Assembly (NCBI GenBank): GCA_012798805.1
Contig: JAAZMM010000044.1
Span: 22,392 to 86,391, forward strand
Origin: Bacteroidales bacterium
GTDB lineage: Bacteria; Bacteroidota; Bacteroidia; Bacteroidales; UBA932
DNA: 64,000 nt
Direction of reading: 5' to 3'
Shown here piece by piece: positions 5,491 through 58,313 of the stretch. Each line of letters begins with the position of its first letter. The stretch's first letter is position 1. The notes below the pieces were generated by a model, which saw only the letters and a program-made list of their open reading frames with translations, had not been told where the DNA came from and ran no database searches. A program made the translations under genes and the position numbers.

Positions 5491-5567
5491 AAACTAAATA
5501 CTAAACACTCAAACCTACATACTACACACTACATACTACATACTACACACTACACACTCATTACTCT
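5491..5567. repeat. Heptad array A: 11 contiguous 7-bp units (NNACTNN on +; RGTNNNN on -)
   Basis: aaactaa atactaa acactca aacctac atactac acactac atactac atactac acactac acactca ttactct; ends 4 nt before the prs ATG. Confidence 0.9.
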
Positions 5568-5571
5568 ACCC

Positions 5572-6525
5572 ATGACACCTAACGATCATCAATTCAAAAT
5601 TTTCTCTTGCAGAAACTCACGTTACCTCGCTGAAAATATAGCTAAAAACCTCAAAACCGAGCTCGGCCGTTCCGAGGTAACAGTATTCAGTGACGGCGAA
5701 TTTCAACCTGCATTTTTGGAAAGCGTACGCGGAGCTACAGTGTTCATTGTTCAATCCACATTTCCTCCCACTGAAAACCTGTTTGAACTCCTTCTTATGA
5801 TTGATGCTGCCAGAAGAGCATCGGCATATAAAGTAATTGCCGTAATACCCTATTTCGGCTGGGCAAGACAGGACCGCAAAGATCGCCCGAGAGTTCCGAT
5901 AGGAGCAAAACTAGTAGCAAATCTCCTCCACGCTGCAGGGTGCGACAGAGTGATGACTGCCGACCTTCATGCTGACCAAATCCAGGGATTTTTTGACTTC
6001 CCTGTTGACCATATTTACGCCAGCAATCTTTTCCTTGCCTATATCAAAGGTCTCAAACTGGAGAATCTCTCCATTGCCTCTCCGGATATGGGTGGAGCAA
6101 AGAGGGCAAATGCATACTCCAGGATCCTCGGAGTACCAATGATTATCTGCCATAAATCGCGTGAAAAAGCCAATGTAGTGGGTACTATGACAGCCATAGG
6201 AGATGTAGAGGGCAGAAACATAATCATAGTTGATGACATGGTTGACACAGCCGGCACAATAACCAAATGCGCCGATATGTTACTCGAGAAGGGAGCTCTG
6301 AGTGTAAGGGCGGTTTGTACCCATGCAGTACTCTCCGGCAACGCTTGCGCCCGCGTGGCCAAGTCGGGCATCGAAGAATTTATCGTGACCGATACAATCC
6401 CCATGAAAAAGGGGCCGGATATCGATACATCGAAGTTTACCGTACTCTCTTTGGCGGAAACCTTCGCAGATGTCATCGAAAAGGTCTATAACTTCAAGTC
6501 CATCAGCGATACATTCATCTTCTAG
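5572..6525 (+). CDS. prs: Ribose-phosphate pyrophosphokinase
   Basis: FSDGEFQPAFLESVRG, ARQDRKDRPRVPIGAKLVANLL, DLHADQIQGFF, VDDMVDTAGT. Confidence 0.95.
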   Translation: MTPNDHQFKIFSCRNSRYLAENIAKNLKTELGRSEVTVFSDGEFQPAFLESVRGATVFIVQSTFPPTENLFELLLMIDAARRASAYKVIAVIPYFGWARQDRKDRPRVPIGAKLVANLLHAAGCDRVMTADLHADQIQGFFDFPVDHIYASNLFLAYIKGLKLENLSIASPDMGGAKRANAYSRILGVPMIICHKSREKANVVGTMTAIGDVEGRNIIIVDDMVDTAGTITKCADMLLEKGALSVRAVCTHAVLSGNACARVAKSGIEEFIVTDTIPMKKGPDIDTSKFTVLSLAETFADVIEKVYNFKSISDTFIF

Positions 6526-6539
6526 AGTTCTATTGCAAC

Positions 6540-7382
6540 ATGATACTTAATGACAACATTCCTATCGAAGTGGCTTACGAGACAATAGTGACCAAAATGC
6601 GTGACTATTTCAATAATGCCGGCATGAAAAAGGCCGTCCTGGGACTCTCAGGTGGCATCGATTCGGCTGTTGTCATGGCAATTGCCTGCGAAGCACTCGG
6701 AAGGGAAAATGTTTATGGTCTCCTAATGCCCTCCCAATTTTCCACTCTGCACTCCGTTTCAGATGCCGTGGACCTTGCAAACAATCTCGGCGTTGAATAC
6801 ACGATAATTCCGATTGAAAAGATCTATAATCGTTTCATGAGAGAAATGTTTTCATTTTTCGAGATAGGCAAATGGAGTGTTGCACAGGAAAATCTCCAGG
6901 CACGAATTCGCGGCACTATCTTGATGACCTACTCAAACCGCTTTAACGCTCTTTTGCTCAACACTTCCAATAAAAGCGAAATATCTGTCGGATATGGCAC
7001 ACTCTATGGTGACCTTTGCGGTGCAATGATGGTAATCGCCGACCTTTACAAGCTCCAGGTTTACGAATTGGCCGGTTACATCAACTCCTCATCGGGCAAT
7101 GTCATTCCCGCCTCCACAATACAGAAGACTCCTTCAGCAGAGCTTAGACCCGGACAGAAAGATAGCGATTCTCTGCCTCCATATGATATACTTGACCCTA
7201 TCCTTTATAGTCTCAACGAAGAGGGAAAAAGCGCGGAAGAGGTAATTGCCGGAGGGGCAGACAAAGCAATTGTAGAGCGCATTATTGCACTGAAGCGGGC
7301 ATACGCATTCAAGATTGCACAAATACCACCCGTAATCACCGTAACTGATAAGCCGGTAGTACCTGAATATAAATGCATCTGA
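6540..7382 (+). CDS. nadE: NH3-dependent NAD+ synthetase
   Basis: LGLSGGIDSAVVMAIA PP-loop; LLNTSNKSEISVGYGTLYGDLCGAM. Confidence 0.93.
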   Translation: MILNDNIPIEVAYETIVTKMRDYFNNAGMKKAVLGLSGGIDSAVVMAIACEALGRENVYGLLMPSQFSTLHSVSDAVDLANNLGVEYTIIPIEKIYNRFMREMFSFFEIGKWSVAQENLQARIRGTILMTYSNRFNALLLNTSNKSEISVGYGTLYGDLCGAMMVIADLYKLQVYELAGYINSSSGNVIPASTIQKTPSAELRPGQKDSDSLPPYDILDPILYSLNEEGKSAEEVIAGGADKAIVERIIALKRAYAFKIAQIPPVITVTDKPVVPEYKCI

Positions 7383-7383
7383 T

Positions 7384-7656
7384 ATGAAAGTTTTGATAGC
7401 AGCCATAATCGTTGTAGGATGTTCAATCCTGGGAATGTGTGTCACTATAATTTTCAAAAAGGACGGACAGTTCCCTGACGGGGAGATTTCACGCAACAAA
7501 CATCTCCGCGAAAAGGGTATAGTTTGTGCTAAAGATGAGGAAATCAGACTTTGGGTAAACAAAGAGAAATGCGATGCTGATGCAATATGTTCTGAAGGAG
7601 GTTGTGGAGCTTGTGCATTCAACACAATGCGCAACCCTAAAAAGGATTCCGCCTAA
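7384..7656 (+). CDS. Small single-TM protein with Cys-rich C-terminal tail, unknown function
   Basis: 90 aa: N-terminal TM MKVLIAAIIVVGCSILGMCVTIIF then ...GIVCAKDEE...KCDADAICSEGGCGACAF; 1 nt after nadE. Confidence 0.7.
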   Translation: MKVLIAAIIVVGCSILGMCVTIIFKKDGQFPDGEISRNKHLREKGIVCAKDEEIRLWVNKEKCDADAICSEGGCGACAFNTMRNPKKDSA

Positions 7657-8403
7657 TTATTGCTTTTCGTGAAGCACCGCTTTGCGAAGCTCAAAATTTT
7701 GTCCAAGATATTTCTTTCTCACTTCCGGATTGTTGGCCAGTTGCTCTGCAGTGCCACTCTCCAGAATCATACCCTCATAAAGGAGATATGCCCTGTCTGT
7801 AATAGCAAGAGTTTCGTGAACATTGTGGTCGGTAATGATAATACCGATATTCTTAGTCTTAAGTTTTGCTATAATGTGCTGAATATCTTCGACGGCAATG
7901 GGGTCCACACCAGCAAAAGGCTCGTCGAGAAGAATGAACTTAGGATCTATCGCCAACGCCCGGGCAATTTCACAACGGCGTCTTTCACCACCTGAAAGCT
8001 GTATTCCAAGGTTTTTACGCACTTTTTGAAGCCCAAACTCCTCTATGAGTGATTCCAGACGTTCATAACGCTCCTCTTTGGAGTAGCCCGCCATTTCCAT
8101 CACGGAAAGGATATTATCTTCGACATTGAGAGTACGGAAGACGGAGGCCTCCTGGGCGAGATAGCCCAGACCTTTCTGTGACCTTTTATACATCGGGAGT
8201 TTTGTTATTTCCTCTTCGTCCAGAAAAATTTTCCCATCATTGGGCTTTATCAATCCGGTTATCATATAAAATGTGGTGGTTTTACCGGCACCGTTAGGCC
8301 CGAGAAGTCCCACGATTTCACCCTGTTCAACTTCAATTGAGACACCTTTTACAACGGTTCTCTTACCATATTTCTTGACCAGATTTGTACAGAAAAGCTT
8401 CAT
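7657..8403 (-). CDS. lptB: LPS export ABC transporter ATP-binding protein LptB
   Basis: Walker [12 protein letters not shown], signature [31 protein letters not shown]. Confidence 0.93.
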
Positions 8404-8421
8404 ATCGAATATTTCGGTGTT

Positions 8422-10185
8422 CTAAATAGTGTCAAGTCCGAGAGTTTTCTTGAGCTCGCGGTACTCTTCGGATGTCTTCTGCAAATAGTTTGCCTTGTCG
8501 GAAGGCATATATAATTTTTGGGAGTTTTCCTGATCGGAAACCTCTTCCAAAACCACCTCAAGACGAAGTGAAGGATGATCTATGCGTTCCTTGACGAATG
8601 ATTCAAGACGCGAAAGAAAATGACGGTCAATGTACTCCTTCTGCGTTATATTGCTGACTTTGAAAGTAACGACTGAGCGCGATTCATCAATCTGCGGATT
8701 GCCCTTTGCAAGGGCGGCAGAGAGGTTGGGAGAACGGGATTCACTGGCCACCAGTGCTTCCCATACGCTCTTGAGATTCTCCTCATTGAGAGCCACTTTC
8801 TCTATCTCCGGCGCAAACTCCATCTGTTTTGAGGCTCCGGATTTAACTTGTTTCATCACATTTTTGATAGAAAGAGTTGAGGGACCCGGGGTGCGGGAAG
8901 TAGTTGATAGTTTGGAGTCTGTAGTGTGTAGTTCTGAGTTCTGAGTTTCGGGTTGCGGGGTGCTGGTTGCAGGTTGCGCGGTAGGAGCGGTCGGAGAGGG
9001 CTGGGGAGCAGCGGGTTGAGCTACCGGAGCGACCTGTGGCGCTACTTGTACCGTAGGAGCAGCCTGAACGGTAGCTTGTGCGACTGCGGGAGCTGCCATT
9101 ATACGGGATATTTTAAGCAATGCAAACTCTATCAACAACCTGGGATTGCCACTCTGGCGATAAGAAACCTCACATTCGGTAGTGACTTCGAGTGCCTCAT
9201 AGAGAAATTTCGCCGGACATTGCGCAGAGAGCTCTCTGTATCTTTGAGCCACCGAAGGTGCAAGCTCGAGAAGTGACTGCGATGCATCATGTTTGCAAAC
9301 AAGCAGGTCACGAAAATGATTGCTTAGACCTGAAACAAAGTGGAGCGCATTGAATCCTTTTGAAAGTATCTCGTCAAAAGTAAGGAATGTCGCTGCGTAG
9401 TCGCCTTTCAGAAAGTCTGCGGTTAGCCTAAAGTAATATTCGTAATCCAGAACGTTGAGGTTGTGGATCACCTGCTCATAACTCACCTCATGACCGCAGA
9501 AAGCTACGGTCTGGTCAAAAAGTGTGAGAGCATCACGCATTGCACCGTCGGCTTTTTGGGCAATGATATGGAGAGTGTCATCCCCTATGGTTACCTGCTC
9601 CTTTTGAGCTATGTCCTTGAGATTGCGCACTATATTCTCTACTGATATACGATTGAAGTCATAAGTCTGACATCTGGAAAGAATAGTTGGGAGAATCTTG
9701 TGCTTTTCAGTAGTAGCAAGGATAAAAATCGCATAGGATGGTGGCTCTTCGAGAGTCTTGAGAAAGGCATTGAAGGCCTGTTGCGAGAGCATGTGAACCT
9801 CGTCTATGATATAGACGCTGTATTTTCCTATTTGAGGCGGAATGCGGACCTTGTCGGTAAGATTGCGGATATCATCTACGGAATTATTGGATGCGGCATC
9901 CAACTCATGTATGCTATATGAGCGCCCTTCGGCAAATGAGAGACAAGATTCACAAACACCACAGGGCACCAGATCGTCCGAGAGGTTGGAGCAGTTGATA
10001 GTCTTTGCAAAAATCCTGGCAGCACTGGTTTTTCCCACTCCACGCGGACCGCAGAATAGGTATGCATGCGCCAGCTGATTTCTGATAATGGAATTCTTAA
10101 GGGTCCGGGCAATGTTTTCCTGGCCAATTAGCGAATCGAAATCATTCGGTCTGTATTTACGTGCAGATACTATGAACTGTCCCAT
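8422..10185 (-). CDS. dnaX: DNA polymerase III subunit gamma/tau
   Basis: ARKYRPNDFDSLIGQENIARTL, FCGPRGVGKTSAARIFAK, zinc-binding CxxxxxxxxCxxCxxC, SRC (ILSRCQTYDF); Pro/Ala-rich linker. Confidence 0.95.
   Translation of the reverse strand: MGQFIVSARKYRPNDFDSLIGQENIARTLKNSIIRNQLAHAYLFCGPRGVGKTSAARIFAKTINCSNLSDDLVPCGVCESCLSFAEGRSYSIHELDAASNNSVDDIRNLTDKVRIPPQIGKYSVYIIDEVHMLSQQAFNAFLKTLEEPPSYAIFILATTEKHKILPTILSRCQTYDFNRISVENIVRNLKDIAQKEQVTIGDDTLHIIAQKADGAMRDALTLFDQTVAFCGHEVSYEQVIHNLNVLDYEYYFRLTADFLKGDYAATFLTFDEILSKGFNALHFVSGLSNHFRDLLVCKHDASQSLLELAPSVAQRYRELSAQCPAKFLYEALEVTTECEVSYRQSGNPRLLIEFALLKISRIMAAPAVAQATVQAAPTVQVAPQVAPVAQPAAPQPSPTAPTAQPATSTPQPETQNSELHTTDSKLSTTSRTPGPSTLSIKNVMKQVKSGASKQMEFAPEIEKVALNEENLKSVWEALVASESRSPNLSAALAKGNPQIDESRSVVTFKVSNITQKEYIDRHFLSRLESFVKERIDHPSLRLEVVLEEVSDQENSQKLYMPSDKANYLQKTSEEYRELKKTLGLDTI
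8888..8984. repeat. Heptad array B, inside the dnaX linker (RGTNNNN on +)
   Basis: From 8902: agttgat agtttgg agtctgt agtgtgt agttctg agttctg agtttcg ggttgcg gggtgct ggttgca ggttgcg cggtagg; translated on - as PTAQPATSTPQPETQNSELHTTDSKLSTTSRTPG. Confidence 0.88.
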
Positions 10186-10238
10186 ATTATGTCTCTACGA
10201 TAGGTATTGAGTAATTTCACAAAAATAGGAATAATTTA

Positions 10239-10246
10239 TAACTTTG
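10239..10246 (+). promoter_or_regulatory. Bacteroidetes -7 element TAACTTTG upstream of M16 peptidase
   Basis: Match to TAnnTTTG, 20 nt before ATG 10267. Confidence 0.4.
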
Positions 10247-10266
10247 CGCCACTCAAAAGAGAATAG

Positions 10267-11529
10267 ATGGATAATTCTTCGCAAAATATATATATAAAAA
10301 CACTTCCCTCCGGAATCAAATTTGCCTTCAAACGCTCACTTTCACCGGTAGCCTATTGCACGCTCAATATCCGCTCCGGGACGCGTCACGAACCGGAAGA
10401 ACTTCCCGGTACTGCCCATTTTGCGGAACACATGCTCTTTAAAGGCACTTCAAAACATTGCCAGCGCGAGATCAACAACCGTCTGGAGCGCCTGGGAGGT
10501 GAACTTAATGCATTTACCACCAAAGAAGAGACGGTAGTTCATGCCACAACTCTCAAGGAAGACATCGGCAAGTCGGCAGATCTGCTTTTTGAAATAGTAC
10601 TCAGTTCTACATTTCCTGAAAAGGAACTCATCAAAGAACGCTCTGTAATCATTGATGAAATCAATATGTACAAAGATTCTCCTGCCGAGAAGATCTATGA
10701 TGACTTCGAAGAGCTTCTCTTCGGCAACCATCCTCTATCAAGATCCATTTTGGGAGATGCAAAAAGTCTTAAAAAAATATCTACAACAGATCTGCGGGAT
10801 TATGCCAAATCGAGATTCACTCCATCTGCCCTTTGTTTCACCGCAGTAGCTGATATGGAGCCTGAAATTGTCGCTAAAATGGTAGAAAAGGCCATTTCAC
10901 GCCATTTTGACGGATCAGTAAAGAGCAAAACGTCCCAACAAGTTAATTCCTCCAATAGATCTTCACTTGATATCGGTGAAATATTTCACAAAGAAATCTC
11001 GCGCAGAAACCATCAGGCCCACTGCATCATAGGTAGCAGCGCCTACTCGCTCTATGACAAGAATCGTCTTGCTCTCCTGTTGCTCTGCAACATGCTGGGC
11101 GGTCCCTCCTCCAACTCGCGTCTCAACCAAAGACTCAGGGAGCGCTCCGCACTGGTATATGCGGTAGAATCGTCATACACTCAATATTCGGACACCGGCA
11201 CCTTCGCTATATATTTCGGATGTGATAAAGGGGATGTGGAAAAATGTCTATCTTTAACCGACAAAGAGATCGGATTTTTCCGTGACGGCCGGCTCAGCGA
11301 AGCACAGCTTAGCTCAGCCAAAAAGCAACTTCTCGGACAACATGCCATCTCCTCGGACAATGGCGAAGTGCAGGCTCTCTCCATGGGCAAAAGCCTTCTC
11401 TCTTACGGCAACGTAATGCCCGACAGTGAGATAATTCGCCTGATAAAGGAGATCACTACTGAAGATATCCGTAGTGTAGCATATGAGGTGCTGGCCCCCG
11501 AACGACTCTCGACTCTCATATACAGATAA
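10267..11529 (+). CDS. M16 family zinc peptidase
   Basis: HFAEHMLFKGT (HxxEH) and downstream Glu; M16 C-terminal repeat. Confidence 0.92.
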   Translation: MDNSSQNIYIKTLPSGIKFAFKRSLSPVAYCTLNIRSGTRHEPEELPGTAHFAEHMLFKGTSKHCQREINNRLERLGGELNAFTTKEETVVHATTLKEDIGKSADLLFEIVLSSTFPEKELIKERSVIIDEINMYKDSPAEKIYDDFEELLFGNHPLSRSILGDAKSLKKISTTDLRDYAKSRFTPSALCFTAVADMEPEIVAKMVEKAISRHFDGSVKSKTSQQVNSSNRSSLDIGEIFHKEISRRNHQAHCIIGSSAYSLYDKNRLALLLLCNMLGGPSSNSRLNQRLRERSALVYAVESSYTQYSDTGTFAIYFGCDKGDVEKCLSLTDKEIGFFRDGRLSEAQLSSAKKQLLGQHAISSDNGEVQALSMGKSLLSYGNVMPDSEIIRLIKEITTEDIRSVAYEVLAPERLSTLIYR

Positions 11530-11535
11530 CTGAAA

Positions 11536-12165
11536 ATGGACCTCTTGGAGAAATATCTTATTGCACACTCCACACCTCAGAGCGAGGAACTTATCTGGCT
11601 TACGCGCCAGACGCACCTTAGGACCAACCGTGGCCGGATGCTTTCCGGACCCATTCTCGGTAAATTTTTGGAAATGGTCACTAAAATGATCTCTCCCTCC
11701 AGAGTCCTCGAGATAGGAACATTTACAGGTTACTCTACTATTGCCATTTCACGCGGACTTGCCCCCGGCGGCACCATTGATACCATAGAAATTAATGATG
11801 AACTCGAAGATCTCATTCGCGAAGCTTACGACAAAGCGGGTATTACAGAGAGAGTAAGACTTATCTTCGGAGATGTACTCCAACTGCTTCCAACACTCAA
11901 AGAGGGCTACGACTTTATATTTTTGGATGCCAATAAACGAGAATATCCCCGCTATTATGAAGCAGCTATCGGATTGCTCCGTAGCGGAGGCTTCATTCTG
12001 GCGGATAATGTGCTCTGGGACGGCAAGGTATATGAAGATTCCCCTTCAACGGATCCACAGACACGTGGCATCCTCGAATTTAACCGTATCGTAGCTGAAG
12101 ATCCCCGGGTGGAAAATGTCATCATACCTCTGCGTGACGGCATCAATATCATTAGAAAACTCTAA
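11536..12165 (+). CDS. Class I SAM-dependent O-methyltransferase (caffeoyl-CoA OMT-like family 3)
   Basis: VLEIGTFTGYSTIAISRGL, DFIFLDANKREYPRYYE, ILADNVLWDGKV. Confidence 0.88.
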   Translation: MDLLEKYLIAHSTPQSEELIWLTRQTHLRTNRGRMLSGPILGKFLEMVTKMISPSRVLEIGTFTGYSTIAISRGLAPGGTIDTIEINDELEDLIREAYDKAGITERVRLIFGDVLQLLPTLKEGYDFIFLDANKREYPRYYEAAIGLLRSGGFILADNVLWDGKVYEDSPSTDPQTRGILEFNRIVAEDPRVENVIIPLRDGINIIRKL

Positions 12166-12198
12166 AAAACAATATCAACTTTACAAAACTCATCAGTT

Positions 12199-12666: not shown

Positions 12667-12674
12667 TCTGCAGA

Positions 12675-13970: not shown

Positions 13971-14030
13971 CTTTTTACTCTTAATTTTCCCGCAAGTTAA
14001 CCATTTTTCAACACTCTGTTGATATTTTTG

Positions 14031-15489: not shown

Positions 15490-15492
15490 GAT

Positions 15493-21965: not shown

Positions 21966-23264
21966 ATGGGTAGAATTAAAATACAACTCAAGGGAGACAA
22001 GATTATATGGATACTTGTGCTTTGCCTTGCCATTATTTCGCTGTTGGCAGTCTTCTCTTCCAGCACCTATTTGGCAAATAAGGAAGGCGTGAGCAAACTC
22101 CATATCCTCCAAGAGCAACTCATATCGGTATCTATCGGTTTTGCGGCTCTGCTGATATGCTATCTGATCCCTATGAGGTTTTACCGATTTGCCGCATTTC
22201 CCCTCTTTGCCGTTACCTTGGTAATGCTGGCTCTTCTTTTCATCATACCTGATGTACGCAACGAGGCAGCCAGAGGTATTAAGATCTTCGGCAGAACAAT
22301 CCAGGTGTTTGAGTTTGCCAAAGTGGGGTTGATACTCTATATTGCAAAGGCACTGGAGCATTGGCAGGACTCCCTGACCACATACAAGGAATTCCTGCTT
22401 AAGATATTGTTGCCGGTAGCAGTTGTATGCATTATGGTTATGGCCAACAGTTTCTCGTCTGCGCTGCTATTTGGTGTAATCAGCATATTGCTGCTCTTCT
22501 TTATGAATGTAAACGCCAAGCATTTGGCAATAACCGCAGGCATCGGAATAGTGGCAATAATGTTGCTTTTTGGCGTTTACAGGATATTTTACCACAATAA
22601 AGTCTATGCCGAAGGAGAAAAACCAGGTGCCGTAGCAAAGTTATTCAACCGTTTCGGTACAGCCACCAACCGTGTCATCAATTTTGTGGAAGCAAAAAAG
22701 GAGAAGGAAGAAGCGGTAGAGGATATGACGGATGAGGAAAGAATAAGGTATAATGATAGCCGGCGCCAGGCGAAAAATGCCGAAATTGCAATACATGAAG
22801 GAGGAATATTTGGAAAAGGTCCGGGTAAAAGCACTCAGAGATATTCATTATCGATGGCCTTTTCTGACTTCATTTATGCCTTTATTGTGGAAGAATATGG
22901 GTTGTTGGGAGGGCTTTTCGTCATTATGATCTATCTGATATTTCTCTTCAGGTGCATCACTATAGCATTCCGGTGTGAAACCATCTTTTCAGGGGCTCTG
23001 GTACTGGGTCTGGCATTCCTGATTGGCACACAGGCATTTCTACACATTATGGTAAATGTCGGGATGATTCCCGTCACAGGACACACATTACCTTTAATCA
23101 GCCACGGGGGAACAGCATACATGGTGCTTAGCGGCACGTTCGGCATTATTCTCTCCATAAGCAAACAGTTGGACAAACAGGATGAACAAAAGCGCAAAGA
23201 ACTTGAAGAAGAGGCAAGAGAAAAAGAATCAGAAATAATGTATTCGGAGGATTACATATTATGA
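21966..23264 (+). CDS. ftsW: FtsW/RodA/SpoVE-family glycosyltransferase
   Basis: MGRIKIQLKGDKIIW start; GPGKSTQRYSLSMAFSDFIYAFIVEEYGLLGG, PVTGHTLPLISHGGTA. Confidence 0.92.
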   Translation: MGRIKIQLKGDKIIWILVLCLAIISLLAVFSSSTYLANKEGVSKLHILQEQLISVSIGFAALLICYLIPMRFYRFAAFPLFAVTLVMLALLFIIPDVRNEAARGIKIFGRTIQVFEFAKVGLILYIAKALEHWQDSLTTYKEFLLKILLPVAVVCIMVMANSFSSALLFGVISILLLFFMNVNAKHLAITAGIGIVAIMLLFGVYRIFYHNKVYAEGEKPGAVAKLFNRFGTATNRVINFVEAKKEKEEAVEDMTDEERIRYNDSRRQAKNAEIAIHEGGIFGKGPGKSTQRYSLSMAFSDFIYAFIVEEYGLLGGLFVIMIYLIFLFRCITIAFRCETIFSGALVLGLAFLIGTQAFLHIMVNVGMIPVTGHTLPLISHGGTAYMVLSGTFGIILSISKQLDKQDEQKRKELEEEAREKESEIMYSEDYIL

Positions 23265-41917: not shown

Positions 41918-42648
41918 TGAGCGATAAACCAAAGAAGATCAAGACTGAACAGAGGGTCGGGTTGTATCTGACCCTCATTTTCCATCTTGCCGTACTTATT
42001 ATCCTATTGCTTGTATCCATTCAGTCGGTAGTTGCTCCTGAAGCCTCATTTGTGCTTGATTTTACCAAACAGGAGGAGATGGAAGAGCAACAGAGAATAA
42101 TAGAGTTGAAAGAGGAGATCAGTCGCGAACTTGACAATCTAATTGCTGCTCCAAGAGGACAGATTCGCAATGTGGTAGTGGATGCCGGATCCCCACTTAG
42201 GGATGACCGTCATTCAAACCCCGACAGGGTCTATGAAGAAGCACGCAAACTCCAAGAAAAATTGGATGCATCCAAAGAAGATGCTATGAAGGAGGAATCA
42301 TCTGAGACAGTGGATCTCAATCCGGAGGTCGAAAAAAAGCAAAAGAAGGAGGATGCTCCCGCTTATAAAGGGCCTTCAGTCATCTCCTACCGGCTTGAGG
42401 GACGCAAGGCACAACACCTGCCGGTACCTGCCTATAAGGGCTACGGATCAGGGGATGTTTTTGTCGAAATAGTTGTCAATCCAAGAGGAAGGGTGATAGA
42501 TGCACGTGTGATGGAGAGTATTTCCAGTCCGGACAAATCACTTCACGATTTTGCAATAGAGGCAGCAAAGCGTTCACGTTTCACAGCCTCGGAAACTTCC
42601 GGATCCCGCCACATCGGCGAAATAGTTTATCGGTTTATTGCACAATAA
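41917..42648 (+). CDS. TonB-like energy transducer
   Basis: N-terminal TM LTLIFHLAVLIILLLVSIQSV; C-terminal GSGDVFVEIVVNPRGRVIDARVMES...AKRSRF. Confidence 0.8.
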   Translation: MSDKPKKIKTEQRVGLYLTLIFHLAVLIILLLVSIQSVVAPEASFVLDFTKQEEMEEQQRIIELKEEISRELDNLIAAPRGQIRNVVVDAGSPLRDDRHSNPDRVYEEARKLQEKLDASKEDAMKEESSETVDLNPEVEKKQKKEDAPAYKGPSVISYRLEGRKAQHLPVPAYKGYGSGDVFVEIVVNPRGRVIDARVMESISSPDKSLHDFAIEAAKRSRFTASETSGSRHIGEIVYRFIAQ

Positions 42649-42655
42649 ACCGCAC

Positions 42656-42690
42656 CACTACAAACTACATACTACACACTACACACTACT
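42656..42690. repeat. Heptad array C: five units between convergent tonB-like and ctp genes
   Basis: cactaca aactaca tactaca cactaca cactact; on - AGTGTGT AGTGTGT AGTATGT AGTTTGT AGTGG; supplies the ctp TAG stop. Confidence 0.85.
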
Positions 42691-44269
42691 CTCCCAGTGC
42701 TCTTTGGACGACATTATCATTCTCCAGATAGATCGGATAAAAAGCATCATCACCCATCGGTGTATATCTGCCGATAACCGCTTTTACCTGAGTCATTAAT
42801 ATATCACCTGAAATCTTCCAATCCGATTCTGAGGGGATTATCCCATTTACCGTTGTATAATCGATGAATTCTCTCTTGAGATTATGCTCTGCAAAAAAGG
42901 CATAAAGTGCATCCATATCCTTGATGGTCCTCATTCGCGTGCGATGTCTGTCACTAAATTTGTTGGCAAACTTGACGACCATGCTTTGACGGTTGCACTT
43001 AATAAGATAATCGGTAACTCCTACCGTATCGAGAGGTACAAAAACGTCGGGAATTATGCCGCCACCACCATAAACGATCTTACCCCCCGGAGTGACATAT
43101 TTTAACGAATCATTAACTTTAATACTATCCGCACTCAACATTTCTCCATGCTCATATCGCTCGAGGATATCCATCTCATATTTATCTGAATAGGGCTTTT
43201 GAATACACCTACCCGTCGGAGTATAGAAACGGGCAACTGTCAGGCGTATGCCCGATCCATCTGAAAAATAGACCGGCTCCTGCACGAGACCCTTTCCGAA
43301 TGAGCGTAAGCCATAAATCAAAGCCCGGTCATTGTCCTGCATGGCTCCTGCGAAAATTTCACTGGAAGAAGCTGAGGCTTCATTAATGAGAACGGCCAAT
43401 TCAATATCCTTGCAACTGCCTTTTCCATCCGCTACAAGATCCTGACGTGGACGATTTTTACCCTCCATATAGACTACCAAATCGCCCTTTTCGAGAAATT
43501 CATTCGAGAGCATCATTGCCTGGTCGAGATAGCCACCCGTGTTATCCCTCAAATCGAATATTAGCCGTTTCATGCCCTTTTCACGAAGGACAAGCGTCGC
43601 CTGAAGAAACTCGAAATAACTGGTCTTGGAAAATTTGGAAAGCTTGATGAATCCCGTGGTATCATTTATCATAAATGCCACATCCACACTATGAATCGGG
43701 ATCATATCCCTTACAATAGTGAAAGGTATCAATTTATCTTCGCCCTCCCTCTTTAGTTCCAGTTTTACCTTTGTACCCCTAGGGCCTCTCATCATCGAGA
43801 CCATGGAATCCTGCTGCATACTGACTCCGGCAACATTTCTGTCATCAATCTTGATTATACGGTCTCCACTGAGCAAACCTGCTTTTTCTGAAGGGCCGCC
43901 GGCAATGACATTGGTAACTATAGCCGTGTCATTGGGAACATTGAACTGGATACCTATACCGTCAAAACCTCCTTGGAGTACTTCGTCAGCTTTTTCCAGA
44001 TCCACGGGAGGCAGATAGACCGAATGGGGATCGAGTGCTGCCAAAACAGATGGAAGGATTTTTTCCGTAACGGCCTGATGATCGATATTGTCAACATAGT
44101 CCCTATCCACACTATTTAGCACAAGCACCAGTTTGGCCCAATCATCCTTTGTGGAATCGATATTGATCACATTCTTTTTGGGGAATCTCTGAATCAGTAT
44201 GACCAGCATCACAATGATTATAATCCATACCGACACTCTCAATATTCGCATTGCTCTGTCACTGTTCAT
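42686..44269 (-). CDS. S41 family C-terminal processing peptidase
   Basis: PDZ GIGIQFNVPNDTAIVTNVIAGGPSEKAGLLSGDRIIKID; active-site NEASASSSEIFAGAMQDNDRALIYGLRSFGKGLVQ. Confidence 0.94.
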   Translation of the reverse strand: MNSDRAMRILRVSVWIIIIVMLVILIQRFPKKNVINIDSTKDDWAKLVLVLNSVDRDYVDNIDHQAVTEKILPSVLAALDPHSVYLPPVDLEKADEVLQGGFDGIGIQFNVPNDTAIVTNVIAGGPSEKAGLLSGDRIIKIDDRNVAGVSMQQDSMVSMMRGPRGTKVKLELKREGEDKLIPFTIVRDMIPIHSVDVAFMINDTTGFIKLSKFSKTSYFEFLQATLVLREKGMKRLIFDLRDNTGGYLDQAMMLSNEFLEKGDLVVYMEGKNRPRQDLVADGKGSCKDIELAVLINEASASSSEIFAGAMQDNDRALIYGLRSFGKGLVQEPVYFSDGSGIRLTVARFYTPTGRCIQKPYSDKYEMDILERYEHGEMLSADSIKVNDSLKYVTPGGKIVYGGGGIIPDVFVPLDTVGVTDYLIKCNRQSMVVKFANKFSDRHRTRMRTIKDMDALYAFFAEHNLKREFIDYTTVNGIIPSESDWKISGDILMTQVKAVIGRYTPMGDDAFYPIYLENDNVVQRALGE

Positions 44270-48322: not shown

Positions 48323-48350
48323 GCAATTCGCAACCCGTAACTGGCAACTA
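48323..48350. repeat. Heptad array D: four units directly downstream (on -) of the fkp terminator
   Basis: gcaattc gcaaccc gtaactg gcaacta; on - TTTTTAGTTGCCAGTTACGGGTTGCGAATTGCGGG. Confidence 0.8.
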
Positions 48351-48377
48351 AAAAGGCGACCACCTGGCCGCCTTTTT
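48350..48377 (-). terminator. Rho-independent terminator downstream of FKBP gene
   Basis: AAAAAGGCG...CGCCTTTTT stem, T-run on both strands. Confidence 0.85.
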
Positions 48378-48398
48378 ATATAATCTATTCTTTCAGAC

Positions 48399-49130
48399 TT
48401 ATTCTTCCTCTGCTTCTGCGGGAACTATGCGAATAAGTTCCACTTTAAACTTCAAAGTCTCATTAGGACCAATGTTGCTACCTGCGCCACGCTCACCATA
48501 AGCAAGATTGGCGGGGATCCAGAGAGTGATCTCACCACCCTCATCAATAAGCTGAAGACCTTCTGTCCAACCCTGGATAACATACTGTAGAGAGAATGTT
48601 GCAGACTCTCCTCTTTGATAGGAAGAGTCAAACACAGTACCATCTAGGAGGGTGCCTTCATAGTTACACTCAACAGTGTTTTCAGCTGTGGGAAATACAC
48701 CATTACCCGCTCTTTCGATCCTATATTGCAGACCGGATTCTGTTGTTACCACACCTTCATTTTTGGCATTATTCTCGAGAAACTCCCGGCCTTTGGTAAT
48801 AGCCTCTTCACCTTTGATCTTGGTGCGAGTCTCAAGAAATTTGTTGATTGCAGCGTAAGATTCGCTACCGATACGATTTACCTCCTGTGGATCTATCTTA
48901 CCCATAGACAAAACATCCTTCATGCCGGCTACAATCTCATTAAAGTTGAGTGAGCCGAAATCGCTCATTGAAATGGCCATTCCGAAGTTCTGACCAAGAG
49001 CATAACTCACCGAATCAACCTGAGCTTTTGTGATGCCTTCAGGCTGGCCTTCATCGGAAGTCTGGGCGGAGCAAGAAAACATTATCATCGCTCCGAGAGC
49101 GCAAATAGCGCAAAATTTGATTATTCTCAT
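48399..49130 (-). CDS. FKBP-type peptidyl-prolyl cis-trans isomerase, lipoprotein
   Basis: Lipobox MFSCSAQ; VECNYEGTLLDGTVFDSSYQRGESATFSLQYVIQGWTEGLQL...IPANLAYGERGAG. Confidence 0.93.
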   Translation of the reverse strand: MRIIKFCAICALGAMIMFSCSAQTSDEGQPEGITKAQVDSVSYALGQNFGMAISMSDFGSLNFNEIVAGMKDVLSMGKIDPQEVNRIGSESYAAINKFLETRTKIKGEEAITKGREFLENNAKNEGVVTTESGLQYRIERAGNGVFPTAENTVECNYEGTLLDGTVFDSSYQRGESATFSLQYVIQGWTEGLQLIDEGGEITLWIPANLAYGERGAGSNIGPNETLKFKVELIRIVPAEAEEE

Positions 49131-51516: not shown

Positions 51517-52373
51517 TTTCCTATTTCAAGCCATTTTATCTCATTATCCCGACCCCAGTATGTAAGCTGGCGCTTAGCGTAGCGGCGGGAATTGCGTTTT
51601 ATCAGTCTTACAGCCTCTTCGAGAGAGATATTTCCATCAATCCAATCGAAGATTTCTTTATATCCCACCGTCTTGAGTGCGGGCATGTCACGATATTGAA
51701 TTAAAGAGCGCGCCTCTTCCACCAGACCTGCCTCCATCATCATATCAACCCGCTTATCTATACGGTCGTAGAGTAGTTCACGCGGACGCGTAAGACCTAT
51801 CTTGACTATTTCAAAGTCTCTCTTTCTTGTACGACCTGTCTTGAATGAGGAAAATTTGCGCCCGGTGGTCATAGTCACCTCAAGTGCTCTTATCAGACGT
51901 TGTCCGTTATTTAGGTCGATGGAGTCGTAGGACTCGGGGTCAAGCCTTTTCAATTCTGCCTGCAAAGAGTCGATTCCCTCTTTTTTTAAGCGCTCAGTCA
52001 AAGATTTGCGCAATTTCTGGTCCACCTTCGGAAAATCATCCAGACCTTTGCAGAAAGCATCTATATAGAGTCCTGACCCACCCGTCATAACAAGCGTTTC
52101 GTGACTGTGGAAGAGCTCCTCAACCAATGAAAGAGCCTCTACCTCATATTTGCCTGCGGCATAATATTGTTCAACTGAGTGTGAATGAATAAAATAGTGC
52201 TTAACCCGGGATAGTTGTTCCGGAGTAGGAACAGCTGTACCTATGCTCATTTGACGAAAAATTTGGCGGGAATCACAACTGATTACCGGAGAGCCGAAAT
52301 GGAGTGCCAGCTCGATACTATAATCCGTCTTTCCCACTGCCGTGGGCCCAAGCAATATGACTACTCGTCGCAT
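51456..52373 (-). CDS. miaA: tRNA dimethylallyltransferase
   Basis: LLGPTAVGKTDYSIELA, SCDSRQIFRQMSIGTA, GGSGLYIDAF, RYAKRQLTYW. Confidence 0.95.
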   Translation of the reverse strand: MRRVVILLGPTAVGKTDYSIELALHFGSPVISCDSRQIFRQMSIGTAVPTPEQLSRVKHYFIHSHSVEQYYAAGKYEVEALSLVEELFHSHETLVMTGGSGLYIDAFCKGLDDFPKVDQKLRKSLTERLKKEGIDSLQAELKRLDPESYDSIDLNNGQRLIRALEVTMTTGRKFSSFKTGRTRKRDFEIVKIGLTRPRELLYDRIDKRVDMMMEAGLVEEARSLIQYRDMPALKTVGYKEIFDWIDGNISLEEAVRLIKRNSRRYAKRQLTYWGRDNEIKWLEIGNQLPSSDINLILTSLTSSSV

Positions 52374-52849
52374 ACCGGAAGATCATCGGTATCCAGCACC
52401 TCTTCAGGTTTTTCCCCAAGATCCTCCCGATACTCGACAATATCTTCATAATGTGATGAAAACTGTTCGGGATTGTGACCTTTGCCCTCTGCATTGTGGG
52501 GATAGGAACGCATTGGAACAAACTTTACCTCATCAATAAACTCAAAACGGATATATCTGTCCTCAGCGATATCATATATATAGTTGATGACAGGCTCACC
52601 TTTGTTGAGGGTGTCCTCAAATGTGACACGGTCCATAGTACCGGCTCCCGTATCGAACATCCCATATTCGCTACATAGATAACCCTCTGCATCACATCCC
52701 TCAAACATTACAATCTGATCCGGAGCAAATTCCAAGTCTGCCAGCATAAAGCTGTTAAAAGCAAAAAGCGTCATATTGGACTTTACTTCATATATCCTGT
52801 AGAAAACTTTGCTCTGCGGGATGGTAGCCCTGTATCTGTAAATAACCAT
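52361..52849 (-). CDS. Plasmid pRiA4b ORF-3-like family protein
   Basis: MVIYRYRATIPQSKVFYRIYEVKSNMTLFAFNSFMLADLEFAPDQIVMFEG...; chromosomal, overlaps miaA start by 13 bp. Confidence 0.65.
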   Translation of the reverse strand: MVIYRYRATIPQSKVFYRIYEVKSNMTLFAFNSFMLADLEFAPDQIVMFEGCDAEGYLCSEYGMFDTGAGTMDRVTFEDTLNKGEPVINYIYDIAEDRYIRFEFIDEVKFVPMRSYPHNAEGKGHNPEQFSSHYEDIVEYREDLGEKPEEVLDTDDLPVCDE

Positions 52850-52869
52850 TGCCTATCAATTTAGTATTG

Positions 52870-52900
52870 CAAAATTACTAAAAAAGCTATATTTTTACAA
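52870..52900 (-). promoter_or_regulatory. Promoter TTG-N20-TAATTTTG upstream of the pRiA4b ORF-3-like gene
   Basis: Reverse strand TTG (52900-52898), 20-nt spacer, TAATTTTG (52877-52870). Confidence 0.6.
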
Positions 52901-52906
52901 TTCAGA

Positions 52907-53521
52907 ATGAATTCATTGCCAAAATCAGATACTGACAGCTACCTAAGCATCGCAGCACCCTCAGAAGGCCTATACAAGGAGAAAGGAAGCAAGTTCATGG
53001 CTTTTGCATACCCTGTGGAAGAAGAGGAGCAGGCAAAAGAGATTATTGCCGATCTCAAGAAGGAATATTTCGATGCCAGACATCATTGTTATGCCTACCG
53101 GATCGGGCATACCGGGGACCAGTGGCGTATGAATGATGATGGAGAGCCCTCTTCGACTGCCGGCAGACCTATCTTCGGACAACTGCTTTCCAATGAACTG
53201 AGCGACATCCTGGTGGTTGTGGTGAGGTATTTTGGTGGCATCAAACTCGGCGTTCCCGGTCTTATACGGGCTTACAAAAGCGCAACAGCTGATGCTATTG
53301 CAAATGCCGAAATTGTGGAGAAAATTGCCGGAGAGTTTTTCACCATCACTTTTGACTACTTGCAGATGAATGATGTAATGAAAGTGCTGAAAGAGATGAA
53401 TATCACTCCAATTTCACAGGATTTCGATCTGACCTGCACCATGGAAGTAAGAGTGCGCCTTACACAGATTGAACAGTTTTACGAATCACTGAAGAACATC
53501 CAAATATGCCGAAAAATTTAA
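52907..53521 (+). CDS. YigZ/IMPACT family protein
   Basis: [83 protein letters not shown]. Confidence 0.93.
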
Positions 53522-54411
53522 TTTCAATTCACGATTTTTCAAAAGAAGAGATTCTCCACATCGTGGAAGTCGCATCAAATTTTGAAAAAAACAAATCGCA
53601 GAATATCCTTGAAGGCAAGGTGATCGCCTGCATCTTTTTCGAACCCTCCACCAGGACTCGTCTTAGCTTCGAAACTGCAGCCAATCGCCTCGGTGCCCGT
53701 GTGATAGGATTTGCAGACGCAGCCAACACCAGCATTGCCAAAGGAGAATCCCTAAAGGACACCATCAAGATGGTTTCCAACTATGTGGACATGGTCATCA
53801 TAAGACATCCGCTCGAAGGAGCAGCCAGGTATGCCGCCGAGGTCACTCCTGTACCTGTGATCAATGCCGGAGATGGTGCAAACCAACATCCCTCTCAGAC
53901 ATTGCTCGACATCTATAGCATCAAAAAGACTCAAGGACGCCTTGATGACCTCACCATAAATATGGTGGGTGATCTCAAATATGGACGCACAGTGCACTCG
54001 CTCCTCCAGGCTATGTCGCATTTCTCTCCCAAGTTCATCTTTACCTCACCCTACGAACTCAAAATGCCCCTCGAATACAAAAGATTTCTTGAGAAAAAGA
54101 AAATACCATACATCGAAACGCGACAATTATCTGAGTACCTTGACAGTACCGACATACTCTATATGACCAGAGTTCAGCAGGAAAGATTTAACGACCCCAT
54201 AGAGTATGAAAATGTCAAAAATATCTATCGACTCGACGCCGAGATGCTCTCAAACGTGCGCGACAATCTCAAAATCCTTCATCCGCTCCCCCGGGTAAAC
54301 GAGATTGCCGCCAATGTGGATGACACTCCATATGCATACTATTTCAAACAGGCCGAAAACGGAATGTACATAAGGATGGCTATAATAGCATATTTATTGG
54401 GATACAGATAA
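53506..54411 (+). CDS. pyrB: Aspartate carbamoyltransferase catalytic subunit
   Basis: [44 protein letters not shown]. Confidence 0.96.
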
Positions 54412-54421
54412 ACAGAGAATC

Positions 54422-54895
54422 ATGACACAAAAAGACAAACATTTGAAAGTCACAGCCATTAAAAATGGCACCGTACTTGACCACTTACCTGCCGAAACTC
54501 TATTCAAGGTGATTGACATCCTCAACCTCTCCAAGCGATCCAACCAGATCACCATCGGCAGCAATCTGGATAGCCGTAGTATGGGCAAAAAGGGCATCAT
54601 AAAGATCTCCGAACACTTTTTTGAAGATGAGGAGATAGGTGAAATTGCTTTGATAGCACCCAATGCTACTATCAATATAATCCGCGACTACGAAGTGGTG
54701 GAAAAGAAAATAATCTCCATTCCCGAGAGTTTTATAGGCATCTTCAAATGCATGAATCCGATGTGTGTTACCAACCATCAGGAGATTCCAACAAAATTCA
54801 CCACCATACGGGAAATGGACGAAGTTTTCCTTCTCTGCCATTATTGTGAAAAGACCACCGACACCCGCAATTTAAAAATCGTAAGCAAAAAGTGA
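54422..54895 (+). CDS. pyrI: Aspartate carbamoyltransferase regulatory subunit
   Basis: KVTAIKNGTVLDHLPAETLFKVIDIL; zinc site CMNPMC...CHYC. Confidence 0.95.
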   Translation: MTQKDKHLKVTAIKNGTVLDHLPAETLFKVIDILNLSKRSNQITIGSNLDSRSMGKKGIIKISEHFFEDEEIGEIALIAPNATINIIRDYEVVEKKIISIPESFIGIFKCMNPMCVTNHQEIPTKFTTIREMDEVFLLCHYCEKTTDTRNLKIVSKK

Positions 54896-54913
54896 TTTAT
54901 TGCGAAAAAATTA

Positions 54914-54921
54914 TATCTTTG
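54914..54921 (+). promoter_or_regulatory. Bacteroidetes -7 element TATCTTTG upstream of serC
   Basis: Match to TAnnTTTG, 33 nt before ATG 54955. Confidence 0.5.
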
Positions 54922-54954
54922 TAGGATTAATAACAAACAAAATAAAACCAAAAT

Positions 54955-56031
54955 ATGAAAAAAGTTTACAATTTTAACGCAGGCCCTTGCGCACTGCCTA
55001 AGCAGGCCATCGATGCTGCAATCGCTGCATTGCAGGATTTCAAGGGTACAGGTATTCCCGTTATTTCAGTTTCACACCGCTCAAAAGAGTGGCAAGCAGT
55101 TATGGATGAGTGCAGTGCACTCTGGAAAGAGCTTCTCGAAATTCCCGATGACTACGAAGTACTCTTCCTCGGTGGCGGTGCATCTATGCAGTTCCTCTAT
55201 GTTGCAATGAACCTCCTGGAGAACAAAGCAGGTTACCTCGAGACAGGTTCTTGGGCCAAGAAAGCTTTCAAAGAGGCTAAAGATCTCGGTAATGCCGTTT
55301 GTATAGCATCTTCTGCTGACAAGACCTACAGCTACATTCCGAAAGGATATGAGATCCCTACCGACCTCGATTATTTCCATATCACCACCAACAACACCAT
55401 CTATGGTACAGAGATCAGATATGATATGGATTGTCCTGTAAACCTCGTGGCAGATATGTCGTCCGACATCATGAGCCGTCCCGTTGACGTTTCCAAGTAT
55501 GCTCTCATATATGGTGGCGCACAGAAAAACGTTGGTCCCGCAGGTGTTACATTTGTTATTGTACGCAAGGATATTCTTGGCAAGGTAACAAGACATTTGC
55601 CCACAATGATCGACTACAGGACTCATATTGATAAGGGTTCAATGTTCAACACTCCTCCCGTATTCCCTATCTTCGTAATGACTGAGACACTCAAATGGGT
55701 AAAGGGACTTGGAGGTCTTAAAGTAATGGAAAAGATGAACATTGAGAAAGCAGAACTTCTCTACAATGAAATCGATCGCAACTCCCTCTTCGTAGGCACA
55801 GCAGCCAAAGAAGACCGTTCCATCATGAATGTATGCTTCGTAATGGCAGAAGGCTATGAGGCCCTTCAGGATGAATTTATGAAATTTGCTACAGAGAGAG
55901 GAATGGTAGGTATTAAGGGTCACCGCTCAGTAGGTGGTTTCCGTGCCTCGATCTACAACGCCTGCCCTAAAGAGCATGTTCAGGCACTTGTTGACTGTAT
56001 GAAAGAGTTTGAAAAAATCCATAAAAAATAA
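54955..56031 (+). CDS. serC: Phosphoserine aminotransferase
   Basis: [66 protein letters not shown]. Confidence 0.96.
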
Positions 56032-56036
56032 GAAAT

Positions 56037-56963
56037 ATGAAAGTACTGATAGCTACAGAAAAACCCTTTGCAAAAGTTGCCGTTGATGGCATAAGAGATA
56101 TTGTTGAACAGGCAGGTCATGAGCTGGTGCTACTTGAAAAATACACCTCTCCCGACCAGCTTCTGGAAGCTGTTGCCGATGTTGATGCTCTCATCGTGCG
56201 TTCGGATAAGGTAACAGCCGATGTTGTTGATGCTGCAAAAAACCTCAAGATTGTGGTACGTGCAGGAGCAGGATATGACAATCTGGATCTTGATGCTTTA
56301 ACTAAAAAGGGCGTTGTTGCAATGAACACTCCCGGCCAAAACTCCAATGCAGTAGCAGAACTGGTTTTCGGTATGCTGATTTACTTGCAGCGTGGAGGAT
56401 TTTCAGGTGCGTCAGGATCTGAGCTTAAAGGCAAGAAACTGGGATTGCATGCTTTCGGCTACATAGGAAAAATAGTTGCCAACATTGCAAAAGGTTTCGG
56501 AATGACTGTTTATGCCTTCTCTCCTTCATTAGCACGTAACCCTAAGCTTGGGGAACAATATGGTGTTACAGCCATCACTACCCCTGAGGAGTTATATGAC
56601 AAGAGCGACATCATTTCGCTTCACATGCCTGCTAATGACCAAACGAAAGGTAGCATTAACTACGCCTTGATGAGTCGTTTGCCCGAAAACGGTATTATCA
56701 TTAATACCGCACGCAAAGAGGTTATGAACGAAGCCGATATAGTGCGTATTATGGAAGAGCGTCCGAAATTTAAGTATGCTACCGACATTTTACCCGGAAA
56801 CCATGAAGAAATGGTGGAGAAATTTGGTATCCGCTATTTTGCTTCAGCTAAAAAGTGCGGTGCCCAGACTCAGGAAGCCAATATTAATGCCGGACTTGCC
56901 GCTGCCAACCAGATTTGCAAATTTTTCGCAACCGGTGACAGGACATTTCAACTTAACAAATAA
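56037..56963 (+). CDS. serA: D-3-phosphoglycerate dehydrogenase (short form, no ACT domain)
   Basis: VVRAGAGYDNLDLDALTKKGVVAMNTPGQNSNAVAELVFGMLIY; NAD-binding GLHAFGYIGKIVANIAKGF. Confidence 0.92.
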   Translation: MKVLIATEKPFAKVAVDGIRDIVEQAGHELVLLEKYTSPDQLLEAVADVDALIVRSDKVTADVVDAAKNLKIVVRAGAGYDNLDLDALTKKGVVAMNTPGQNSNAVAELVFGMLIYLQRGGFSGASGSELKGKKLGLHAFGYIGKIVANIAKGFGMTVYAFSPSLARNPKLGEQYGVTAITTPEELYDKSDIISLHMPANDQTKGSINYALMSRLPENGIIINTARKEVMNEADIVRIMEERPKFKYATDILPGNHEEMVEKFGIRYFASAKKCGAQTQEANINAGLAAANQICKFFATGDRTFQLNK

Positions 56964-56977
56964 TCTCATCTGATAAT

Positions 56978-58222
56978 ATGGTAAAAATTAAACCTTTTGC
57001 AGCTATCCGCCCTCCAAAAGCAATTGTCAAAGAAGTAGCAGCACGCCCATACGACGTGCTCAACTCGGTTGAGGCAAAAGCTGAAGCCGGAGAAAAATCA
57101 CTCCTGCACATTACGAAACCGGAAATTGATTTTGATCCTATCATAGACGAGCATTCACAGCCCGCTTATGACAAGGCAGTAGAAAACTTCAAACTCTGGA
57201 TGGAGAGAGGATGGCTTGTACAAGATCCTAAGGAGAATTACTATGTCTATGCCCAGACCATGGATGGCCGCACACAATATGGCCTGGTGGTCTGCGCCAA
57301 TGTAGAGGATTACCTTACCGGCAAGATCAAGAAACACGAGCTTACACGCAAGGATAAGGAGGAAGACCGTATGATCCATGTTCGCATACAAAATGCAAAT
57401 GTGGAGCCGGTATTCTTCACCTATCCCGACAATGATGAGATCAATGATATCGTGAAACGTTATGCCGCAGGTGAACCCGAATATGATTTCGTAGCCGATG
57501 ACGGTTTCGGACATCATTTGTGGATAATCAGCGATGAAAAAGATATCGCACGCATTACTGAGATTTTTGCAGGTATTCCTGCATTCTACGTGGCCGATGG
57601 TCACCATAGGACAGCAGCAGCTGCACTTGTAGGAGAGGAACAACGCCGCAACAATCCCAACCATACCGGCGATGAGGAGTACAACTACTTCATGGCAGTA
57701 GTATTCCCGGAAAGCCATCTCAAGATTATCGACTACAACAGAGTTGTCAAGGACCTCAACGGTATGACTCCAAAAGAGTTTCTTGAAGCTCTTAAAGAGG
57801 ATTTCATTATCGAAAGCAAAGGTTCGGCAGAGCCGTACAGACCTTCAAAACTTCACAACTTCTCGATGTATCTTGAAGGCGAGTGGTACTCATTGACTGC
57901 CAAGCCCGGCACTTACGACGACAATAACCCCATCGGTGTTCTCGACGTTACAGTTTGCTCCAATCTCATTTTTGACAAGCTTCTCGACATTAAGGATCTC
58001 CGCACATGCACCAGGATTGACTTCGTTGGCGGTATCCGTGGTCTTGGCGAGTTGAAGAAGAGAGTGGATTCAGGAGAAATGGCTGCAGCATTTGCGCTCT
58101 ATCCCGTTTCTATGAGACAACTGATCAACATTGCCGACACGGGCAACATAATGCCTCCCAAGACCACCTGGTTTGAGCCAAAGCTCAGAAGTGGTCTCAC
58201 AATCCACAAGTTGGAAAAGTAA
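56978..58222 (+). CDS. DUF1015 family protein
   Basis: KPFAAIRPPKAIVKEVAARPYDVLNSVEA; FYVADGHHRTAAAA. Confidence 0.9.
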   Translation: MVKIKPFAAIRPPKAIVKEVAARPYDVLNSVEAKAEAGEKSLLHITKPEIDFDPIIDEHSQPAYDKAVENFKLWMERGWLVQDPKENYYVYAQTMDGRTQYGLVVCANVEDYLTGKIKKHELTRKDKEEDRMIHVRIQNANVEPVFFTYPDNDEINDIVKRYAAGEPEYDFVADDGFGHHLWIISDEKDIARITEIFAGIPAFYVADGHHRTAAAALVGEEQRRNNPNHTGDEEYNYFMAVVFPESHLKIIDYNRVVKDLNGMTPKEFLEALKEDFIIESKGSAEPYRPSKLHNFSMYLEGEWYSLTAKPGTYDDNNPIGVLDVTVCSNLIFDKLLDIKDLRTCTRIDFVGGIRGLGELKKRVDSGEMAAAFALYPVSMRQLINIADTGNIMPPKTTWFEPKLRSGLTIHKLEK

Positions 58223-58225
58223 AGT

Positions 58226-58258
58226 AAAAAATGGCCTCACCGAGTGAGGCCATTTTTT
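58226..58258 (+). terminator. Rho-independent terminator of the serC-serA-DUF1015 operon
   Basis: AAAAAATGGCCTCAC-cga-GTGAGGCCATTTTTT, perfect 15-bp stem. Confidence 0.92.
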
Positions 58259-58313
58259 AGTTGCGCGTTACATGTTGCGGGGTGCGGGGTACGGGTACGG
58301 GGTGTGGGTTTTA
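58259..58313. repeat. Heptad array E: directly follows the terminator T-run
   Basis: agttgcg cgttaca tgttgcg gggtgcg gggtacg ggtacg gggtgtg ggtttta (one 6-mer unit); overlaps the stop codon of the - strand lipoprotein gene. Confidence 0.82.

Follow-up and report, generated by a model that had tools for sequence, protein, structure and literature searches.

Degenerate heptanucleotide arrays with a preferred strand at gene borders in one clade of Bacteroidales

Degenerate tandem arrays of a 7-bp unit with an RGT core lie at gene borders in the genome of an uncultured Bacteroidales bacterium, where one strand is preferentially directed away from the adjoining gene, and the family marks a single seven-species clade in a genus in which most congeners have none. 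The stretch analyzed here, referred to as the window, comprises 64,000 nucleotides (positions 22392–86391 of contig C2) of G000, a metagenome-assembled genome of 1.73 Mb in 127 contigs with 85% completeness. Genomes compared carry G-labels, clade A stands for G000 with its six sister species G062, G020, G012, G005, G014, and G017, and the G-rich strand of an array (RGTNNNN) is termed the RGT strand and its complement the ACY strand. With some reserve, we favor the reading that the arrays were grown by slippage and are tolerated at gene borders. Intergenic heptamer arrays as a general kind are already known from bacteria (PMC4692102; PMC4679880); new relative to the open-access literature are the degenerate family with its AGT core, the restriction of this family to one clade, the replacement of stop codons, and a polarity that is independent of quadruplexes.

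Results

Heptamer arrays are real and genome-wide

The arrays occur at dozens of loci of the genome, and four of the five tracts noticed in the window are far above chance. Motif-free autocorrelation at period 7 delimited tracts at 5504–5569, 8908–8983, 42650–42698, and 58260–58310 and, as the initial annotation had predicted, found none in 50 third-order Markov shuffles. Three RGTN4 runs of at least four units were counted in the window against 0.06 expected, and Tandem Repeats Finder reported period 7 at four of the five sites. The remaining tract, 48323–48350, has just three phased units, a run expected 2.4 times per window, and by itself does not reach significance, though its orthologous site carries arrays in three sister species (G017, G005, and G020). 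In the 1.73 Mb of the genome, ACTACNN ×3 was matched 69 times and ACYN4 ×5 117 times, while the reversed patterns that served as control were matched in neither case, and thus the dispersed, degenerate period-7 family that had been proposed from the window alone is borne out. A chance origin is ruled out by the shuffles and the reversed patterns.

Period 7 stands out in the spacers of G000, with 681 triplet repeats against 24 after shuffling, whereas other periods from 5 to 10 reach about 2-fold at most; the over-representation by which intergenic heptanucleotide long simple sequence repeats are recognized is therefore seen here. ACT/AGT was the most conserved triplet in a motif-free spacer scan, and RGT lay within the consensus unit of 42 of 46 motif-free tracts in G000 and 31 of 33 in G017, where composition would give about half. 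The fixed RGT/ACY core that the initial annotation proposed is supported, but a strict single core is found only for the AT type (ACTACAC), and the two types often meet out of phase.

Placement and polarity at gene borders

The more informative feature, absent from the initial annotation, is a placement rule. The density of arrays in spacers exceeds that in coding DNA about 65-fold (4.6–5.5 versus 0.07–0.17 triples per kb in G000 and G017); most stretches of these two genomes were picked around array matches, which biases the densities upward and should leave placement and polarity unaffected. With genes called by a greedy longest-open-reading-frame method in 1.34 Mb, arrays were present in 1 of 134 divergent, 52 of 289 co-directional (18%), and 32 of 80 convergent spacers (40%), with about 0.2 arrays per gene 3′ end (0.18–0.20). 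The same scan of 78 kb from two array-free congeners gave none. Most runs begin at a functional border, which can be a position a few nucleotides from a stop codon, the exact end of a terminator T-tract (TTTTT|AGT), or a position 2–20 nt before an ATG.

The RGT strand runs outward: the median distance is 13 nt from its 5′ end to the gene behind and 122 nt from its 3′ end to the gene ahead. Outward and inward arrays numbered 101 and 31 (p = 7.6e-10; p = 8e-5 for G000 alone and p = 6e-7 for G017 alone), the sites of the two genomes being partly orthologous and hence not independent in this count, and the smaller set from other clade members had no significant bias (12:8). When the strand with more G was used instead of the motif, the ratios were 32:11 in G000 and 27:2 in G017. 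Motif-free polarity was also found in G059, which belongs to another Bacteroidales family and has different units (53:15, p = 4e-6), but the arrays of this genome lie further off the borders (median 128 versus 289 nt) and 10 of 76 are in divergent spacers; the polarity carries over, the tight abutment does not. The polarity rule is independent of quadruplexes: arrays without any GG are still polar (33:7), which rejects quadruplexes as its cause, and a canonical quadruplex motif is contained in 1 of 107 runs of at least four units.

The two strands differ in their stop triplets, which occur in 545 of 680 units on the RGT strand versus 88 of 680 on the ACY strand. Genes that are followed by an RGT array end with TAG in 23 of 31 cases in G000 (119 of 516 elsewhere, p = 9e-9) and in 11 of 23 cases in G017 (82 of 339 elsewhere, p = 0.02), an excess from which it follows that the array often supplied the stop codon. 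Arrays of at least four units inside open reading frames have ACY as the sense strand in all cases, the best of which is the DnaX linker.

Units, local copying, and turnover

The commonest units are AGTGTGT and AGTATGT, followed by AGTTCTG, AGTGGGT, and relatives, and GC-type units (AACCCGC, ACCCCGC) adjoin AT-type units (ACTACAC), and where the two meet the phase is often broken. The view of the initial annotation that the arrays do not look like simple slippage of a single microsatellite is not supported. Neighboring units are identical in 18% of cases versus 4% expected in G000 and in 29% versus 7% expected in G017, that is, 4–5 times more often than the unit pool predicts, which indicates that units are copied locally; in a small set from the other clade members this excess was not seen (4%). 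Multi-unit blocks are duplicated within arrays, and array lengths differ between species at orthologous spacers. To the eye, the unit classes seemed to follow one another in a fixed direction, but the transition counts did not support this (S-to-G 31, G-to-S 27).

Turnover is well illustrated by the convergent site at 42641–42699, which holds ACTACAC arrays in G000 and G017, a GC-type array of opposite orientation in G062, a composite in G020 and G012, and a near-empty remnant of 21 nt in G014 and G005. At other orthologous sites, unit type, length, and even orientation are switched similarly while the position is kept. Such conserved positions with changing content are more easily reconciled with spacer DNA that is tolerated and quickly rewritten than with a fixed regulatory site.

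Composites, in which RGT on the left is paired with ACY on the right, are common among the spacers and have inverted ends (TAGTTCTGAGT...ACTCAGAACTA). All-against-all searches within G000 (724 kb) and within G017 (456 kb) revealed no common core outside the heptamers, which, CRISPR and coding repeats aside, are the only multi-copy sequence. On contig C22 of G017 (L160, 10868–11454), two near-identical copies of about 95 nt each consist of an RGT block, a short middle, and an ACY block, and each adjoins a terminator copy, a local duplication of the whole composite. A third and rarer heptamer class, GCCAANN/GCYAACR (e.g., GCCAACGGCCAACAGCCAAT), is often found shortly upstream of start codons (L098, L091, and L090 in G000; L156 13221–13515 and L165 9834–10028 in G017). 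The exception to period 7 is a period-9 signal in G017 spacers that comes mainly from one tract; this tract (AGTAGGTAT/AGTAAGTAG) directly follows a heptamer array in L164 (contig C35, about 4500–4680) and is the clearest spacer period other than 7.

Distribution among related genomes

DnaX identity sets the seven species, with sister species 86–89% identical to G000, apart from the rest of the genus. A scan of named genomes gave only relatives with 38–71% DnaX identity, those of full length including UBA1751 and Candidatus Coprenecus. ACYN4 ×6 gave 32–130 matches in the clade members searched and none in the other congeners except G009 and G026, in each of which an array was seen with another unit (ACTCTCA and GGTATTA). 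G062 was outside this search and has arrays at orthologous loci. ACTACNN ×4 was matched in 10 of 149 genomes of the order, G000 included, the others having it at few contigs and with near-uniform units, and Bacteroidota commonly have period-7 tracts built of other units.

Neither of two repair-gene losses accounts for the arrays, as the polA 5′ nuclease is present in the array-bearing genomes searched, and so is MutS, except in the 51%-complete G012. The MutS_III scores of clade A (125–139 bits) are lower than those of the rest of the genus (at least 141 bits), which suggests faster MutS evolution in the clade. Most array-free congeners have Y1_Tnp, which six of the seven clade A genomes lack, an inverse pattern that may be phylogenetic.

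The arrays in the window

An AT-type array (ACTACAY on the plus strand; RGT strand minus) at 5491–5567 ends 4 nt before the ATG of prs (5572–6525), which encodes ribose-phosphate pyrophosphokinase. The orthologous leader holds heptamers in G017, G062, G014, and G005, and is just 46 nt long in G012. The mixed AT/GC-type array at 8888–8984, with RGT on the plus strand, is not intergenic; it lies within dnaX (8422–10185, minus strand) and encodes a low-complexity linker, in which three 7-nt units give a 7-residue repeat. All seven clade A species examined have an array here, intact or degenerate, and it is longer in G005 and G014. At 42656–42690, an AT-type array (RGT strand minus) separates convergent genes, and the TAG stop codon (42686–42688) of the S41-peptidase gene (42686–44269, minus strand) is part of it. 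The short GC-type array at 48323–48349 (RGT strand minus) begins exactly at the T-tract of the intrinsic terminator (hairpin and T-tract at 48350–48378, minus strand) of an FKBP gene (48399–49130, minus strand). Finally, the DUF1015 gene (56978–58222, plus strand) has its terminator hairpin and T-tract at 58226–58258, and right after the last T begins a GC-type array (GTTGCG/GGGTGCG; 58259–58313, RGT on the plus strand) that points outward from the terminator and abuts the 3′ end of the next gene (58311–59423, minus strand).

Discussion

On the reading that we favor, local copying of 7 bp, by replication slippage or small unequal duplications, would grow, shrink, and rewrite arrays in unconstrained spacers, and arrays would spread until they meet a base that is constrained, whether in a stop codon, in the T-tract of a terminator, or in the leader before a start codon. 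Which orientation survives would largely be set by selection at the gene border. The RGT strand has TAG or TGA in most units and, per 21 nt, in all three frames, and it could thus safely replace a natural stop codon; the ACY strand, poor in G and in stops, would be tolerated as an open leader before starts and where disordered linkers, like the one in DnaX, are encoded. A dedicated function of the arrays would then not be needed. Gene-border selection explains a large part of the polarity, yet not everything, and several observations weigh against this account. Polarity is still seen, albeit more weakly, in arrays that lie more than 10 nt away from both borders (40:14, p = 5e-4), and after terminator T-tracts about 18 RGT arrays were seen versus 5 ACY arrays (plausible terminators, sorted by hand); selection for stop codons should not act at either place. 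The use of one vocabulary (AGTGTGT, AGTATGT, and AGTTCTG) at dozens of loci is not expected if slippage is purely local and starts from random seeds. Furthermore, no difference in the repair genes compared, the polA nuclease and MutS, accounts for the clade restriction.

A rival reading is that the arrays act at mRNA 3′ ends, for example as insulators against read-through or antisense transcription entering a gene or as stabilizers of the 3′ end. The number of arrays per gene 3′ end, their near-absence from purely 5′ spacers, their exact start at T-tracts, and the same polarity at both borders would agree with such a transcript-border element. The RNA entering the gene would be the G-poor ACY strand, which could favor loading of Rho. 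However, Rho prefers YC dinucleotides, which ACTACAC units do not contain, the polarity extends to 5′ borders, just about a fifth of the 3′ ends carry an array, and unit type, length, and orientation vary at orthologous sites, some of which are near-empty; we consider this function unlikely. More doubtful still is an addition of (RGTNNNN)n by a repair polymerase to 3′ DNA ends at spacer breaks, with subsequent joining of the tailed ends. This would give RGT...ACY composites with telomere-like polarity, as in the frequent composite spacers, and it accounts, without any selection, for the usual course of the G/T-rich strand away from the gene, but the order of blocks is not directional and a candidate enzyme is lacking. 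RVT_1 is absent from G017, G062, G005, G014, and G012, and a telomerase-like reverse transcriptase or reverse transcriptase-templated repeats are rejected on the basis of these five array-bearing genomes.

Binding sites for a DNA- or RNA-binding regulator have been proposed for the TAACTGA repeats of Beggiatoaceae (PMC4679880). A fixed AGT core with drifting spacers, the clade-wide occurrence, and the position of some arrays just upstream of start codons would suit such sites, but the core is kept within the dnaX coding region as well, the bias of Beggiatoaceae towards start codons is not seen here, and the neighbors of the five window arrays are unrelated genes, which makes a regulator a quite improbable explanation. 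Mobile palindromic elements, either repetitive extragenic palindromes (REP) with their associated tyrosine transposases (RAYT) or miniature inverted-repeat transposable elements (MITEs) with TAGT...ACTA ends, are disfavored and very hard to believe in. The units do contain GTAG, the REP tag, the composites have inverted ends, and REPs likewise favor co-directional and convergent spacers (PMC3733652). Nevertheless, Y1_Tnp is absent in G000, G017, G062, G005, G014, and G012, with one match in G020, whereas most congeners without arrays have it, and REP/RAYT is rejected. No core common to the loci exists apart from the heptamers, and none of the orthologous spacers compared is a clean empty site with a target duplication; a MITE or another longer dispersed element is likewise rejected, as only heptamers recur and constant-length copies with target-site duplication were not found.

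The initial annotation named the STRR repeats of filamentous cyanobacteria as the nearest precedent. Cyanobacterial heptanucleotide arrays are indeed among the nearest, and STRR1–3 (units CCCCAGT, TTGTCAT, and CAACAGT) are likewise dispersed heptanucleotide arrays, but the family here is not one of them, as doublets of these units were absent from the 1.18 Mb used for all doublet counts. It had further stated that no named equivalent is known in Bacteroidales, which is partly wrong: TAACTGA direct repeats have been reported from Beggiatoaceae, cyanobacteria, and five Bacteroidetes, Paludibacter among them, in a study that also sums up earlier proposals that 7-nt units favor polymerase slippage (MacGregor; PMC4679880). 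These are also intergenic heptamer arrays with sporadic taxonomy and neighbors of no functional class, and their reverse complement contains AGT, but they consist of one exact unit, in Beggiatoaceae close upstream of start codons, and no tandem doublet of it was found. In the P6b stem of the Nostoc trnL intron, heptanucleotide repeats (TDNGATT, NNTGAGT) are degenerate with a fixed core as well (PMC4476775), and NNTGAGT is AGTNNTG in another register; they are confined to one RNA stem-loop, whereas the arrays here are dispersed through spacers. Three register matches of the degenerate NNTGAGT in G017 were the only tandem occurrences of any published unit tested. REP elements resemble the arrays in lying mostly between co-directional or convergent genes and near gene 3′ ends (PMC3733652), but their palindromic unit of fixed length is absent here, and six of the seven clade genomes have no Y1 transposase.

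Placement and strand preference are the same as in the G-rich heptamers GGGAATC of Xanthomonas and GGGGA(C/T)T of Nostoc, whose G-rich strand is sense after stops or antisense before starts and which are rare in divergent spacers (PMC4692102). They too keep common positions with varying length and sequence among relatives. That study discusses quadruplexes, which these heptamers formed in vitro; the units here, in contrast, are degenerate with an AGT core, and GGGAATC/GGGGAYT doublets numbered zero. The placement and polarity rule of quadruplex-forming heptamers is thus now seen in arrays unable to form quadruplexes, as well as in G059, which represents a second family of Bacteroidales with other units, and therefore quadruplexes are not needed for it. 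A single strand-polar process at bacterial gene borders, common to Bacteroidales, Xanthomonas, and cyanobacteria and independent of both quadruplexes and stop-codon selection, appears rather unlikely to us; it might be, for example, slippage coupled to transcript ends or a directional fill-in of breaks. What causes the strand polarity of bacterial heptamer arrays at gene borders becomes a testable question, for which sister species with and without an array at one site are natural replicates.

Two minor observations concern the assemblies. Contigs start or end in or beside heptamer arrays in G000 (C88, C61, and C76) and in G062 (C99, C45, C96, and C91), and the arrays are therefore probably responsible for some of the fragmentation of these metagenome assemblies. 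At another contig end of G000 (L188, contig C33, 15224–15497), there is a CRISPR-like array with at least four copies of ACTGTTTGCGATATATCAAAGATACAAAGATGTAGTCAATTCAC at a spacing of about 76–77 nt.

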